Shown here in pieces: positions 11,015 through 17,541 of a DNA stretch of 64,000 nt; within the stretch, counting starts at the first letter, position 1, and each line of letters starts with the position of its first letter. The stretch is from Devosia sp. Root413D1 (lineage in GTDB: Bacteria > Pseudomonadota > Alphaproteobacteria > Rhizobiales > Devosiaceae). The position numbers and the translations under genes were made by a program. Under the pieces are notes generated by a model, which ran no database searches, was not told the DNA's origin, and worked only from the letters and a program-made list of their open reading frames with translations. The stretch is taken from contig NZ_LMEA01000011.1 of NCBI RefSeq assembly GCF_001425235.1, positions 496,001 to 560,000 on the forward strand, in the 5' to 3' direction.

Positions 11015-11149
11015 TGACTTTTCGGTGAGTCCGTGCGCTCCATCGCCTCAGGGCGATGGTCGTGCCCTTGAAAGGTGCGCGCCGAACCTCCTATTTTGGT
11101 CCATACCTATTTGTCTTGGGCTTAGGTCTCAGAGTAAGTGGAGCGTAAG

Positions 11150-12100
11150 GTGCACGCCAAAGTCGTCATCATCGGATCGGGTCCTGCCGGCTACACGGCG
11201 GCCATCTATGCGGCGCGCGCCATGCTCGAGCCGGTCATGATCTCCGGCATCCAGCCCGGCGGTCAGCTCACCATCACCACCGATGTCGAGAACTACCCCG
11301 GCTTCGCCGACGTCATCCAGGGGCCCTGGCTGATGGAGCAGATGAAGGCGCAGGCCGAGCATGTCGGCACCAAGATGATCAACGACATCATCGTCGAGGT
11401 CGATTTTGACAGGCGCCCGTTCGTGCTCATCGGCGATGGCGGCACCCGCTACACGGCCGACACGGTGATTGTCGCCACTGGTGCGCAGGCGCGCTGGCTG
11501 GGCCTCGAGTCCGAAGAAAAGTTCCAGGGTTTCGGCGTCTCGGCCTGCGCCACCTGCGATGGCTTCTTCTATCGCGGCAAGGAAGTGATCGTCGTCGGCG
11601 GCGGCAATACCGCGGTCGAGGAGGCGCTGTTCCTCACCAACTTCGCGTCCAAGGTCACCGTGGTCCACCGCCGTGGCGAGTTCCGCGCCGAGCGCATCCT
11701 GCAGCAGCGGCTGTTCAAGAACCCCAAGGTCGAAGTGATCTGGAACGCCGAGATCGAGGAAGTCTACGGCCAGCACATGCCGCGCTCGGTTCAGGGCGTG
11801 AAGATCCGCGACACCAAAACCGGCCACGTCACCGAAAAGTCGGTCGACGGGGTGTTCATCGCCATCGGCCACTCGCCGGCGACGTCGATCTTTTCGGGCA
11901 AGCTCGACATGAAGCCGGGCGGCTATCTCGAGGTGCAACCCGGCAGCACCGCCACCAACGTGCCCGGTGTGTTCGCGGCCGGCGACGTCACCGACGACGT
12001 TTACCGGCAGGCGGTGACAGCCGCGGGGATGGGGTGCATGGCAGCCTTGGACGCAGAGGAATATCTGGCATCGCTCGAGCTCGCAGAAGCGGCGGAATAG
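11150..12100 (+). CDS. trxB: Thioredoxin-disulfide reductase
   Basis: A 316-residue FAD- and NADPH-dependent flavoprotein that reduces thioredoxin in the cytoplasm. The FAD-binding GxGxxG is in VVIIGSGPAGYTAAIYAARA, the redox-active pair is CATC in SACATCDGFFYRG, the NADPH fold has VVGGGNTAVEEA, and the C-terminal FAD motif is VFAAGDVTDDVYRQAVTAAG. I prefer the GTG at 11150 because GGAG sits 6 bases upstream; a GTG four codons earlier (11138) is the alternative. The lsrB gene starts 3 bases after the stop, so the two are probably co-transcribed. Confidence 0.97.
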   Translation: MHAKVVIIGSGPAGYTAAIYAARAMLEPVMISGIQPGGQLTITTDVENYPGFADVIQGPWLMEQMKAQAEHVGTKMINDIIVEVDFDRRPFVLIGDGGTRYTADTVIVATGAQARWLGLESEEKFQGFGVSACATCDGFFYRGKEVIVVGGGNTAVEEALFLTNFASKVTVVHRRGEFRAERILQQRLFKNPKVEVIWNAEIEEVYGQHMPRSVQGVKIRDTKTGHVTEKSVDGVFIAIGHSPATSIFSGKLDMKPGGYLEVQPGSTATNVPGVFAAGDVTDDVYRQAVTAAGMGCMAALDAEEYLASLELAEAAE

Positions 12101-12103
12101 CCG

Positions 12104-12997
12104 ATGCTGGATTGGGACAAGCTCCGCATCTTCCACACCGCCGCCGAATCCGGGTCCTTCACCCACGCCGCTGAAAAGCTCAACATGAGCCAGTCTGCCG
12201 TATCGCGGCAGATTTCGGCGCTCGAGGAGGATCTGGGGCTAAAGCTGTTCATCCGCCACGCCCGCGGCCTTGTGCTCACCGAGGTGGGCGAGCAGCTGTT
12301 CCGCACTGCGCACCGCATGCACTGGGAACTGCAGCAGGTCGAGACCCAGATGTCCGAGAGCCAGGAGGTGCCGACCGGCCCCCTGCTCGTGACCACCACG
12401 GTGGGTATCGGCTCGACCTGGCTATCCTCGCGCATCCACGAGTTCCTGATCCTTTATCCGGAAATCCAGATCGAGATTAAGCTCAACGACGCCGAGCTCG
12501 ATCTCGCCATGCGTGAGGCCGACGTCGCCATCCGCCTACACCGGCCGAACCAGTCCGAGATGATCCAGCGCAAGCTGTTCACCGTGCACAACCATTTCTA
12601 CGCCTCCGAGCAGTACCTCAAGGAGTTCGGCGAGCCGCAGGCGGTCGAAGATCTCGACAACCACCGCGTCATCTCGTTCGGCGAGCCGGTGCCGTCCTAT
12701 CTCGGCGACATCAACTACCTCGAGCGCCTCGGCCGCCCGGATTCCTCGCCGCGCCGCGCTTCGATGAAGGTCAACGCCATCTACGGCATGATGCAGGCCG
12801 CCCGCGCCGGCATCGGCATCGCCATGCTGCCGGATTACGTCACCGAGGGCGAAACCAACTTGCGGCGCGTGCTCGAAGGCATCGAGCTGCCGGCCTACGA
12901 AGCCTATTTCGTCTATCCCCCGGCGCTGAAGAACTCCAAGCGCGTCGGCGTCTTCCGCGACTTCCTCGTCGGCAAGGCCCGGGAGTGGTCGTTCTAG
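12104..12997 (+). CDS. lsrB: LysR-type regulator, LsrB/VtlR type
   Basis: The 297-residue protein has an N-terminal winged HTH (FHTAAESGSFTHAAEKLNMS, QSAVSRQISALEEDLGLKLF) and a C-terminal periplasmic-binding-protein-like effector domain. Position directly behind trxB identifies it as the orthologue of LsrB of Sinorhizobium meliloti and VtlR of Agrobacterium/Brucella. Those control envelope and oxidative-stress genes and, in VtlR, the AbcR small RNAs. The protein as read contains no cysteine at all, whereas I recall that S. meliloti LsrB is proposed to sense redox state through cysteines. The ATG overlaps the end of trxB with a GCGGAA-like ribosome site. Confidence 0.88.
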   Translation: MLDWDKLRIFHTAAESGSFTHAAEKLNMSQSAVSRQISALEEDLGLKLFIRHARGLVLTEVGEQLFRTAHRMHWELQQVETQMSESQEVPTGPLLVTTTVGIGSTWLSSRIHEFLILYPEIQIEIKLNDAELDLAMREADVAIRLHRPNQSEMIQRKLFTVHNHFYASEQYLKEFGEPQAVEDLDNHRVISFGEPVPSYLGDINYLERLGRPDSSPRRASMKVNAIYGMMQAARAGIGIAMLPDYVTEGETNLRRVLEGIELPAYEAYFVYPPALKNSKRVGVFRDFLVGKAREWSF

Positions 12998-14763: not shown

Positions 14764-15750
14764 ATGCTGCGTGCCTATATCCGCGAAGGCGACCGCCTCG
14801 TTCCCACCGATTTCGACCCCGCCGCCGGCACCCAGCTGACCGGCGCGGTCTGGTACTCGCTCACCGACCCCTCGCGCGAAGAGGATAAGTTCGTCGAGGC
14901 CTGTCTCGGCATCGACATCCCCACCCGCCGCGAAATGCAGGACATCGAGCCTTCCGCCCGCCTCTACAGCGAGGGAGGCGCCGAGTTCATGACCATCACT
15001 GCGCTGATCGAGGATGAGGCAGATCAGGTGGTCAAAACCCCGATCACCTTCGTGTTGCGCAACGACCAGCTGGTCACCGTGCGTTATGCCGATCCAAAGC
15101 CCTTCCGCCTCTACGAGCGCCTGGTTTCCCGCCCTGCCACCGGCGAGATCGGCGGCGAGCGCGTCATGATCGGTCTGCTCGAGTCCTTCATCGACCGCCT
15201 GGCGCAACTGCTCGAGAACACCGGCGACGGCATCGACCAGATTTCGCGCGAGGTGTTCGGCAACAAATCGACCAAGCCGACCCGCAAGACCCGCGACCTG
15301 CAGTCGCTGATCGAGCGCATCGGCAAGAAGGGCGATGTCCTCACCCTCGCCCGCGAGAGCCTGGTCTCGATCAGCCGGCTCGTCAGCTTTCACCAGTCGA
15401 GCGGCGCCGAGGACCAGAAATCGGCGCGCGACCGCAAGCAGGAAATCAAGGTGCTGCAGCGCGACGCCGCCGCGCTCAGCGACCACGCGGCTTTCCTCTC
15501 GGACAAGATCACCTTCCTGCTCGATGCGACGCTCGGGCTGATCAACCTCGAGCAGAACCAGATCATCAAGATCTTCTCGGTGGCCGCGGTGGTGTTCCTG
15601 CCCCCGACCCTCGTTGCCTCGATCTACGGCATGAACTTCCAGTTCATGCCCGAGCTGAGCTGGCCTCTGGGCTATCCATTCGCGCTGGGGCTCATGGTCC
15701 TCTCGGCGGCGGTGCCCTACCTGTTCTTCAAGCGCAGCGGCTGGCTCTGA
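14764..15750 (+). CDS. corA: Magnesium/cobalt transporter CorA family
   Basis: A 328-residue CorA-type channel. The large cytoplasmic N-terminal domain is followed by a long helix and two C-terminal membrane helices (residues about 270-290 and 300-320). The signature YGMN is present in ASIYGMNFQFMPELSW, and the protein ends with the positively charged KRSGWL tail. It forms pentamers that import Mg2+ (also Co2+ or Ni2+). GGAG lies 7 bases before the ATG at 14764. Confidence 0.93.
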   Translation: MLRAYIREGDRLVPTDFDPAAGTQLTGAVWYSLTDPSREEDKFVEACLGIDIPTRREMQDIEPSARLYSEGGAEFMTITALIEDEADQVVKTPITFVLRNDQLVTVRYADPKPFRLYERLVSRPATGEIGGERVMIGLLESFIDRLAQLLENTGDGIDQISREVFGNKSTKPTRKTRDLQSLIERIGKKGDVLTLARESLVSISRLVSFHQSSGAEDQKSARDRKQEIKVLQRDAAALSDHAAFLSDKITFLLDATLGLINLEQNQIIKIFSVAAVVFLPPTLVASIYGMNFQFMPELSWPLGYPFALGLMVLSAAVPYLFFKRSGWL

Positions 15751-15924
15751 GCCCCGGGGATTCGCCGTCGAATCTGACAAAAAACTGTCACAATCAAGCA
15801 CTTGGCGTCGCGTTCACATCGGCGTGCGACGCCACGACGCACGCCGGAAACCGCAATACACGAGCAAACTCATCGACTTAACAGCCATGCGAAAAACGCA
15901 TGCCCCTCATTCGATACTCCTCGG

Positions 15925-15952
15925 TTGCTGGGTCGGCACTCACCCCATATAT
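15925..15952 (+). promoter_or_regulatory. Predicted promoter of small RNA unit 1
   Basis: TTGCTG, 16-base spacer, ATATAT. The -10 region is within CCCCATATAT, which also resembles a heat-shock sigma (RpoH) -10 element. Confidence 0.35.
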
Positions 15953-15958
15953 CCCCGC

Positions 15959-16077
15959 TCGACAGCAGCTGAGCGCATCTCCCTCCTCCTCCTCGCGCTC
16001 GTTGTTTGTTCCTCCCTGTAGCCGGCAACGGCTGCTACTCGGCCCCGCTCTCCCCTCGAGCGGGGCCTTGTTTTTTT
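15959..16077 (+). ncRNA. Small RNA unit 1, AbcR/alpha-r15-like, with anti-Shine-Dalgarno loop
   Basis: About 119 bases. The first hairpin pairs GAGCGC (15971) with GCGCTC (15995) and exposes CTCCCTCCTCCTCCTC in its loop. A second unpaired CCTCCC lies at 16011. The unit ends in a strong intrinsic terminator (GGCCCCGCTC / GAGCGGGGCC, then TTGTTTTTTT). No protein frame fits. Size, CU-rich anti-SD motifs and the lsrB neighbourhood match what I recall of AbcR (alpha-r15) RNAs, trans-acting repressors of transporter mRNAs working with Hfq. The start point is inferred from the promoter. Confidence 0.65.
16041..16077 (+). terminator. Intrinsic terminator of small RNA unit 1
   Basis: Perfect 10-bp stem GGCCCCGCTC / GAGCGGGGCC with a 7-base loop, followed by TTGTTTTTTT. 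Confidence 0.9.
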
Positions 16078-16194
16078 CCGCCACACGAACGCCCGAACCA
16101 GCCGCTCGAACGGCAGGTGATTGACGCATGCGTCACGGCAGCATGGCTGACCTATGCCTGCACAAACTGCATAGCTGGCATGTTGAACTCCGCA

Positions 16195-16223
16195 TTGTGG
16201 ACCAAACGGTCAAAGTGCATATT
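16195..16223 (+). promoter_or_regulatory. Predicted promoter of small RNA unit 2
   Basis: TTGTGG (16195-16200), exactly 17 bases, CATATT (16218-16223). Confidence 0.45.
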
Positions 16224-16229
16224 GTGACT

Positions 16230-16424
16230 GTCGATGTGAGCCGCACCGTATCCTCCTCCCTCGGTCCTGCTCTGCGACACCGGTCCGAAGTCGTATCCTC
16301 CTCCCTCGACTTAGGGCCATCGGCAAATGGCGTATCCTCCTCCCTCGTCCATTTGCCACCACTTCAGATTTGGACTTCGGTCCTTTTCATTGGGCCCCAT
16401 CTTCGGATGGGGCCTCTTTTTTTT
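16230..16424 (+). ncRNA. Small RNA unit 2 with three CCTCCTCCC hairpin loops
   Basis: About 195 bases containing the 17-mer CGTATCCTCCTCCCTCG three times (16247, 16292, 16331). Each copy sits in the loop of a different stem: ACCG/CGGT, AAGTCG/CGACTT and GGCAAATGG/CCATTTGCC. The stems differ while the loops are identical, so the loops are under selection. The unit ends in a strong terminator at 16393-16424. The pattern resembles the cuckoo / CcsR class of alphaproteobacterial RNAs and a triple anti-SD RNA sponge or repressor. Confidence 0.7.
16393..16424 (+). terminator. Intrinsic terminator of small RNA unit 2
   Basis: Perfect 8-bp stem GGCCCCAT / ATGGGGCC, loop CTTCGG, followed by TCTTTTTTTT. 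Confidence 0.92.
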
Positions 16425-16491
16425 GCTTCGGCTCATCTTGCTTGCCCCGGCGCCTCGCGCCCAGCGCATGGCTGACGTTCCGACTTGGCGA

Positions 16492-16520
16492 TTGTTCCTT
16501 TCGCCGCATCACCCGATAGT
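16492..16520 (+). promoter_or_regulatory. Predicted promoter of small RNA unit 3
   Basis: TTGTTC (16492-16497), 17-base spacer, GATAGT (16515-16520). Confidence 0.4.
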
Positions 16521-16526
16521 CATCTC

Positions 16527-16637
16527 AACGAATTGCAGCCGCTCCTCCTCCCTGGCTGCGCTTCGATGGGTCGCCCGCTTCGGCGAGCCGGCCTTTGAAG
16601 GCTCCGCTCATCCCCTCGAGCGGAGCCTTTTTCTTTT
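16527..16637 (+). ncRNA. Small RNA unit 3, AbcR-like, with anti-Shine-Dalgarno loop
   Basis: About 111 bases. GCAGCC (16535) pairs with GGCTGC (16554) around the loop GCTCCTCCTCCCT. The unit ends in the terminator at 16599-16637. Its terminator loop (TCCCCTC) and closing bases match unit 1, suggesting duplication of one ancestor. It ends 61 bases before the aldo/keto reductase start. Confidence 0.65.
16599..16637 (+). terminator. Intrinsic terminator of small RNA unit 3
   Basis: Perfect 11-bp stem AGGCTCCGCTC / GAGCGGAGCCT with an 8-base loop, followed by TTTTCTTTT. Confidence 0.92.
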
Positions 16638-16698
16638 GGCTCTCAGGTTGCCCCGCGCACCAGCCGCGCTAGGCTGGTCGCCCAACCCGAGGCCGCTC

Positions 16699-17541
16699 AT
16701 GACTCTTCCCACCATTGCCCTCCCCTCCGGCAAATCCGTGCCCGCTCTCGGCCAGGGCACCTGGCGCATGGGCGAAGATCGCCGCCGCCATGCCGACGAG
16801 GTCACGGCGTTGCGCCGGGGCATCGAACTCGGCATGACGCTGATCGATACCGCCGAGATGTATGGCGATGGCGGCGCCGAGCTGGTGGTCGCTGAAGCGA
16901 TCAAGGGCCGCCGCGACGAGGTGCAGCTGGTCAGCAAGGTGCTGCCCCACAATGCCAGCCGCGGCGGCACCATCGCCGCCTGCGAGCGCAGCCTGAAGCG
17001 GCTCGGCACCGACCATATCGAGCTCTATCTGCTGCACTGGCGCGGCCGGCATCCCCTCGCTGAAACGGTCGATGCCTTCGAAACCCTGCAGCGCTCCGGC
17101 GCCATCGGCGGCTGGGGCGTTTCCAACTTCGATGTCGACGATATGGAAGAACTGCTCACCGTCCCCGGCGGCAAGGCCTGCGCCACCAACCAGGTGCTCT
17201 ACAACCTCAGCGCCCGCGGCATCGAGTATGACCTGCTCGCGTGGTCGGCCGGACACGCCATGCCGATCATGGCCTACTCGCCACTCGGCAACGACAACCG
17301 CATGCTCCGCCACCCGTCGCTGCAGCGCATCGCCAACGCCCGCGGCATCACCGCAGCGCAGGTCGCCCTCGCCTTCGTGCTGGCTCGGCCCGGCGTCATC
17401 GCCATCCCCAAGGCCACCGGCCTCGACCATGTCGCCGAGAACCGCGCCGCCGCCGACCTCACGCTGACCGCCGAAGAACACGCCGCCCTCGACGCCGCTT
17501 TCCCGCCGCCACGCCGCAAGCAGGCGCTGGAGATGATCTGA
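16699..17541 (+). CDS. Aldo/keto reductase
   Basis: A 280-residue NADPH-dependent oxidoreductase of the AKR superfamily (TIM barrel). The catalytic tetrad is visible: D in LIDTAEMYG with the Tyr four residues on, Lys in LVSKVLPHN and His in LYLLHWRG. The C-terminal cofactor segment is [16 protein letters not shown]. It reduces aldehydes or ketones; the substrate is unknown. GAGG precedes the ATG at 16699. The frame runs further upstream only through the small-RNA region and is not coding there. Confidence 0.9.

Follow-up and report, generated by a model that had tools for sequence, protein, structure and literature searches.

The window, as we call the whole 64,000-nucleotide stretch of Devosia sp. 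Root413D1 DNA analyzed here, contains a tandem array of three putative small RNA (sRNA) units ~3 kb downstream of a LysR-type regulator gene, lsrB (Table 1). A corA-like gene and other open reading frames (ORFs) lie between lsrB and the array. The corA-like gene, the one directly upstream of the array, was scanned and scored 198.5 bits, slightly below the TIGR00383 cut-off of 200.75, and the aldo/keto-reductase-like gene 3' of the array likewise fell below its NCBIfam cut-off. For the regulator itself the top NCBIfam models are LysR-type regulators, none of those listed reaching its cut-off. We named the gene lsrB because the order trxB-vtlR is that of A. tumefaciens (PMC7486931; this and the other papers given by PMC number are cited from excerpts) and because AbcR follows the orthologue in some other families. 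The window gene is up to 99% identical to lsrB of named Devosia records, and 99% identical to that of Devosia insulae DS-56. The family Devosiaceae includes Devosia, Pelagibacterium and Maritalea.

Table 1. Features of the window, with positions counted from its first nucleotide; aSD, anti-Shine-Dalgarno.
Feature	Position	Strand	Remarks
trxB, thioredoxin-disulfide reductase	11138..12100	+	NCBIfam TIGR01292, 414 bits versus cut-off 343.45
lsrB/vtlR-type LysR regulator	12104..12997	+	immediately 3' of trxB; presumed activator
Palindrome ATGCGAAAAACGCAT, upstream of unit 1	15887..15901	+	GCAT at 15898, ~ -62
Unit 1 promoter-like TTGCTG-N17-TATATC	15925..15953	+	hexamers at 15925/15948
Unit 1 putative sRNA, ends predicted	15960..16077	+	AbcR-like layout
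Unit 1 terminator-like site	16041-16067	+	
Extra LsrB-type box GCATGGCTGACCT	16141..16153	+	
TGCA-N6-GCAT before unit 2	16159..16172	+	-71 to -58 of predicted start; form of the nfeR1 LsrB site
Unit 2 LsrB/VtlR-type box GCAT-N3-TG-N3-T (GCATAGCTGGCAT)	16169..16181	+	
Unit 2 promoter-like TTGTGG-N17-CATATT	16195..16223	+	hexamers at 16195/16218
Unit 2 putative sRNA, ends predicted	16230..16424	+	alpha-r14/NfeR1-like; three aSD hairpins, small hairpin, terminator
Unit 2 aSD loop a, CCTCCTCCC	16252..16260	+	conserved in 28/29 homologues
Unit 2 aSD loop b, CCTCCTCCC	16297..16305	+	conserved in 29/29 homologues
Unit 2 aSD loop c, CCTCCTCCC	16336..16344	+	conserved in 29/29 homologues
Unit 2 terminator-like site	16392-16415	+	
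Unit 3 LsrB/VtlR-type box GCATGGCTGACGT	16466..16478	+	
Unit 3 promoter-like TTGTTC-N17-GATAGT	16492..16520	+	hexamers at 16492/16515
Unit 3 putative sRNA, ends predicted	16527..16637	+	one aSD hairpin, hairpin, terminator (loop CATCCCCTCGAG)
Unit 3 aSD motif CCTCCTCCC	16544-16552	+	
Unit 3 terminator-like site	16597-16630	+	
Cobalamin riboswitch RF00174	38439-38655	+	130.6 bits; sole Rfam match above cut-off in the window

The first-pass annotation had described three successive terminators in a gene-free stretch, each with a plausible promoter upstream, and five hairpins that expose one and the same CU-rich loop. Terminator-like sites are indeed present on the + strand at all three units, a count that is not significant alone since shuffled sequences gave a mean of 1.7 (sd 1.5) against the three found. 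The stretch is not free of reading frames: mechanical ORFs cross the array, one of 115 aa at 16128-16475 for example, and the reductase frame is open as far back as 16327 (a 404-aa ORF), into the array. Four of the five loops are exact copies of the 9-mer CCTCCTCCC, three in unit 2 and one in unit 3, all on the + strand, and the 64-kb window has no other copy on either strand; unit 1 differs in carrying CCTCCTCCTCC, at 15982, in place of the exact motif. The 17-mer said to occur three times in the middle unit does so (CGTATCCTCCTCCCTCG at 16247, 16292 and 16331). The sequence CCTCCTCCCT occurs eight times on both strands of the 5.85-Mb genome, and four of these copies fall inside 302 bases of the array. 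Unit 1 consists of a CU-rich 5' hairpin with CCTCCTCCTCC, an unpaired TTCCTCCC, a second hairpin and a terminator having the loop CTCTCCCCTCGAG.

In order to ask what is conserved we used lsrB loci collected by protein similarity regardless of motif, the best 80 of 113. All 69 of these loci with more than 4 kb of sequence after lsrB have at least two exact motifs on the same strand within 5 kb downstream of the gene; in one of them, L083, the two motifs lie 3.5 kb apart. The remaining 11 of the 80 loci are short, and six of the 11 show no motif. In the same best 80 loci, the 9-mer occurred 435 times in the 362,324 bases lying within 5 kb downstream of lsrB, versus nine times in 1,095,190 bases elsewhere on the lsrB strand and twice on the opposite one. 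The link to lsrB made in the first-pass annotation therefore stands, both in the position of the window gene and in the arrays found near lsrB in relatives. The interval between corA and the aldo/keto reductase, which had been offered as the anchor for comparing genomes, fared badly: both flanks were present at only two of the 80 loci and a corA match at 16, several contigs being short. Across the relatives the array is anchored to lsrB rather than to corA or the reductase gene.

The motifs of the 69 loci fall into several groupings. The pattern 1+3+3 was found at 27 loci, 3+3 at 13, 3+1 at six (L011 and L084, the nearest kin of the window, among them) and 15 other patterns at the remaining 23, the loci having one to four motif groups and 2 to 10 exact motifs. 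By eye we distinguished four recurring unit types, A to D. Type A has one aSD hairpin followed by GTTCCCTC, a hairpin and a terminator with the loop CTCTCCCCTCGAG; types B and C have three aSD hairpins each; and type D had no intact motif in the loci in which it was seen on inspection. Read from the sequences, window unit 1 resembles type A, unit 2 type C (by its promoter) and unit 3 type D (by place and terminator). A tree of the triples, with mostly weak support, left old B/C duplicates and re-homogenised copies unseparated. At L047, L055 and L061 a fourth, unit-D-like element follows unit C, with a GCATGGC word upstream, a terminator-like loop CATCCCCTCGGG and no intact aSD motif. The locus of a Devosia MAG (L029, 11787-13134) has 10 exact aSD motifs after lsrB in four groups, 1+3+3+3, and by eye the first two triples hardly differ, which suggests a recent duplication.

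Unit 2 gave a DNA match in 105 of 136 family genomes. In the 29 best matches, homologues selected by DNA similarity with the own genome excluded, identity to the window was 99.7% in the motif columns and 75.5% in the rest of the stretch; all three motifs were kept in 28 of the 29. Near relatives are over-represented in this set because it consists of the best-scoring matches of a DNA search. Constant loops on varying stems had been taken in the first-pass annotation to argue for selection on the loops, and conservation of the loops in related species had been named beforehand as one test of the array; the loops are conserved and, as described below, the stems covary.

For the stems we aligned 40 of 53 candidate triples with the window, 13 being omitted by hand (alignment A1). 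Double changes were seen in 20 of the 26 consensus pairs of these 41 triples, and 95.4% of the cells pair. The covariation value was 0.632 versus 0.220 in shuffles, none of 500 shuffles being as high, and it fell to at most 0.122 once the pairing partners were slid. The count of doubly changed pairs discriminated less sharply, the observed 20 being reached in four of 500 shuffles (mean 16.0). When all 53 candidate triples were included with the window, 19 of 24 pairs had double changes and 93.9% of cells were paired. As the rows of A1 were chosen by the exact motif, the invariance of its loops is partly by construction, and loop conservation was therefore judged on the 29 homologues taken by DNA similarity; stem pairing is unaffected by this choice of rows. 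For unit A we made a second alignment (A2) from every locus of the 1+3+3 pattern (27 in all), together with L011, L084 and the window. In the RNAalifold consensus of A2 the second hairpin and the terminator appear; the first hairpin does not, and it thus has no covariation support.

Given the CCUCCUCCC-type loops we compared the array with the known sRNA families. The Rfam ar14 model (RF02344) gave 46.9 bits for unit 3 and 34.4 bits for unit 2, both below its cut-off of 58.8, and CcsR1 (RF02791) gave 26.1 bits in the array, below its cut-off of 65.3. The kinship with CCUCCUCCC-loop RNAs suggested earlier is borne out by these scores, and the curated Rfam cut-offs miss the array in the window. 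A whole-genome search with ar14 at E<=0.001 returned two matches, both in the array. At the same E-value 114 of the 136 family genomes were matched, five of them above the cut-off. The best ar14 scores in the arrays of three relatives were 45.2 (L067), 37.1 (L055) and 67.8 bits (L076, Maritalea); the lsrB-linked triple of L076 passes the 58.8-bit cut-off and, because synteny leads from L076 to unit 2, the best reading of unit 2 is as a divergent relative of alpha-r14/NfeR1 ('cuckoo') that is no member by Rfam's rule. Unit 2 shares with alpha-r14/NfeR1 (SmelC397) three CCUCCUCCC-loop hairpins with variable stems and, by sequence, both LsrB-type sites upstream. Three CCUCCUCCC hairpins, the mark of alpha-r14, were found in unit 2 only, units 1 and 3 having one aSD-type hairpin each. 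There are two differences. The ar14 model has its U-run straight after the third aSD hairpin, whereas unit 2 adds a hairpin and a separate terminator, and NfeR1 of S. meliloti lies ~31 kb from AbcR1/2 (by the coordinates in the PMC7143759 excerpt), whereas several units lie near lsrB in the window.

Unit 1 was a different case. Like AbcR1/AbcR2 (alpha-r15) it lies downstream of trxB-lsrB on the same strand. Its parts also come in the order given for AbcR: a CUCCUCCC-type loop on a 5' hairpin, a second CU seed left unpaired, and finally a terminator (PMC8844928, excerpt). However, the AbcR core TTCCCCTCTGG is absent from unit 1, which has TTCCTCCC there, as against GTTCCCTC in 27 of 30 aligned units. 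A search of 15750-16720 with the ar15/AbcR model (RF02345) came back empty at E<=10, as did one of the own genome under stricter filters, which miss weak matches, and one of the arrays of L067, L055 and L076 at E<=1. On the model search and the core we rejected AbcR membership of unit 1, and with it the alpha-r15 identity first proposed. In the absence of an RF02345 match unit 1 is therefore AbcR-like in layout and position only.

Each unit is preceded by a promoter-like pair of hexamers spaced 17 nt apart, as the first-pass annotation had claimed; the pairs were chosen by eye, and a generic sigma-70 scan found no promoter at the array. The predicted starts follow a convention, 7 nt after the -10 hexamer. 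The unit 2 promoter is similar by eye to the unit-C promoter consensus of the relatives. The LsrB/VtlR box is given as GCAT-N3-TG-N3-T (PMC8844928, PMC7486931, excerpts), and in the S. meliloti abcR1 promoter (PabcR1) the LsrB box is reported at -61 to -49 (PMC8844928). In the window GCATAGCTGGCAT spans -61 to -49 of the predicted unit 2 start at 16230, with the first aSD motif 83 nt on, and GCATGGCTGACGT begins at -61 of the predicted unit 3 start at 16527, with the aSD motif 78 nt on. Unit 2 has in addition a sequence of the form TGCA-N6-GCAT reported for the LsrB site of S. meliloti nfeR1 (PMC10746234, excerpt). The palindrome before unit 1 lacks the TG of the LsrB box, its GCAT lying about as far from the predicted start as those of units 2 and 3. 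In the relatives, an LsrB-type box is part of the unit-A promoter consensus.

The box spacing was then counted from boxes, not from motifs. Within 5 kb after lsrB the exact motif followed 75-89 nt on in 118 of 177 boxes (best 80 of 113 loci), the other 59 having no motif at that distance, versus none of 72 boxes elsewhere in the same loci. Counted from the motif groups of the relatives, a box lies no more than 200 nt upstream of 122 of the 186; of 127 box instances, 118 sit 75-89 nt before the first motif. That the aSD sRNAs are real and LsrB is not their controller, the GCAT boxes serving another regulator and lsrB being an inherited neighbourhood, would agree with the lack of a full box at unit 1, with the 64 of 186 groups that lack an exact box in the 200 nt upstream, and with conflicting S. 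meliloti evidence: the excerpts of PMC7486931 and PMC8844928 disagree on LsrB control of the AbcR sRNAs. We consider this unlikely, as the box agrees in both sequence and distance with what is published for LsrB/VtlR, an LsrB orthologue is encoded nearby, and the spacing of box and motif is fixed across loci after lsrB and not elsewhere.

We consider it probable that the array encodes three separately transcribed, trans-acting aSD sRNAs that are made from LsrB/VtlR-activated promoters and block mRNA translation. Each RNA would expose CU-rich aSD seeds, either unpaired or in the loop of a hairpin, and the seeds would pair with ribosome-binding sites and so block translation initiation of many mRNAs. 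LsrB/VtlR, encoded ~3 kb upstream, would activate the unit promoters; unit 2 would be the NfeR1 (alpha-r14) counterpart, with units 1 and 3 as shorter relatives, unit 1 in the AbcR-like layout. From the conserved loops, the covarying stems of the unit-2 type, the boxes at fixed spacing and the linkage to lsrB, all read from DNA, the units appear to form a conserved cluster of aSD sRNA genes tied to lsrB, a variant of the NfeR1/AbcR kind. We infer that the units are transcribed, with ends near those predicted, that LsrB binds the boxes and that mRNAs are silenced, ABC-transporter messages possibly among them. If the promoters are LsrB-activated, LsrB would therefore, we propose, act on its regulon partly via redundant riboregulators. 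In S. meliloti LsrB activation of NfeR1 and aSD silencing have been reported, as has redundant riboregulation below LsrB for NfeR1 and AbcR1 (PMC10746234, PMC8844928, excerpts). In the literature, with subscription journals thinly covered, we found no report of such RNAs in Devosia.

The hairpins might instead be cut from one longer transcript, might mainly bind protein in the manner of CcaF1/DUF1127, or might act as a sponge. The CcsR1-4 RNAs (RF02791) and the cuckoo family resemble the array in having CCUCCUCCC hairpin loops repeated in clusters, and in Rhodobacter the CcsR RNAs follow a DUF1127 gene and are processed from a single ccaF1 precursor (PMC10253847, excerpt). Several ar14 matches of other families also follow a DUF1127 gene: at 10 of 30 ar14 loci, picked by eye for a DUF1127-like upstream frame, all 10 ORFs end just before the motifs, and six of six scanned were DUF1127. 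In the window, however, the next gene upstream is corA-like, every unit comes with a terminator and a promoter-like pair of its own, and boxes precede units 2 and 3, so that we give this explanation very little weight. That the array is protein-coding or a chance GC-rich repeat devoid of RNA function is hardly credible: mechanical ORFs do cross it and the terminator count alone is within the range of shuffles, but the motif is strand-specific in relatives, the stems covary, the loops are conserved far above their surroundings and in relatives the distances between neighbouring motifs fall evenly into all three frames (86/78/85), which disfavours coding, and we rejected the coding explanation since the spacing is not frame-bound.

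As candidate targets we took ORFs of the own genome with a start region complementary to the seed. AbcR and NfeR1 regulate ABC-transporter messages, and NfeR1 is nitrogen-responsive. The pattern GGGAGGAG occurs 27 times in the genome 2-12 nt before an ATG versus eight times for the reversed pattern, and by Pfam eight of 16 seed-complementary ORFs of at least 90 aa are ABC-transporter components; by sequence, the seed thus fits many ABC-transporter messages. A control with a different strong Shine-Dalgarno pattern gave 30 occurrences versus four reversed, and six of its 21 ORFs (20 of the 21 scanned) were ABC-transporter components. As the control gives 6/21, specific target enrichment is not supported and we discarded the 8/16 as evidence. 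The presumed ntrB was likewise rejected as a strong target, GGAGG alone preceding its start; it was taken as ntrB by its position before ntrC (TIGR01818, 681.5 bits).

Outside the family we hand-picked, among the matches listed, 29 lsrB loci that represent 25 further families of the same order, one or two per family. Within 6 kb of lsrB, two of these had a single exact motif and none had more; the AbcR core TTCCCCTCTGG stood in the first 1 kb after lsrB in nine. A weak ar14 match (37 bits; G246:C385:4504-4647), 149 nt downstream of lsrB in G246 of family f38, is possibly an older trace of the linkage, and because of this match the lsrB linkage is not strictly exclusive to the family. In 249 genomes of the order, searched under stricter filters at the cost of weak matches, 78 had an ar14 match, 41 of them above the cut-off. 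One, G267, has three tandem ar14 matches ~1.5 Mb from its lsrB; as tandem alpha-r14 matches thus occur away from lsrB, array expansion as such is not unique. The distinctive feature is expansion beside lsrB with LsrB-type boxes. The 30 ar14 loci of other families have an exact box within 130 nt in five cases, in two of these at 76 nt.

Tentatively, and with the odds rather against it, the Devosiaceae cluster may be near the ancestral state, an LsrB-activated aSD tandem that in rhizobia later split, AbcR staying beside lsrB and NfeR1 coming to lie elsewhere. On that view LsrB would at root be an aSD-RNA activator, and a graded genome-wide translational brake would have its strength set by how many seeds a locus carries (2 to 10 exact motifs). 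A redox link of LsrB has been reported in S. meliloti (PMC10746234, excerpt). Should the proposal of LsrB-activated aSD sRNAs hold, a soil and marine family would possess a conserved multi-unit aSD sRNA set under one regulator, and AbcR and NfeR1, studied separately in rhizobia, would be joined by a shared place and activator. The natural variation among loci lets one test why aSD sRNAs occur in redundant sets. High motif numbers were also seen at alpha-r14 matches elsewhere in the order: L243 (from G267) and L245 (from G202) each have nine CCTCCTCCC within 3 kb, a DUF1127 ORF terminating right before the motifs of L243, and L262, L263 and L267 (family f10) each have eight CCTCCTCCC in 3 kb that overlap ar14 matches.
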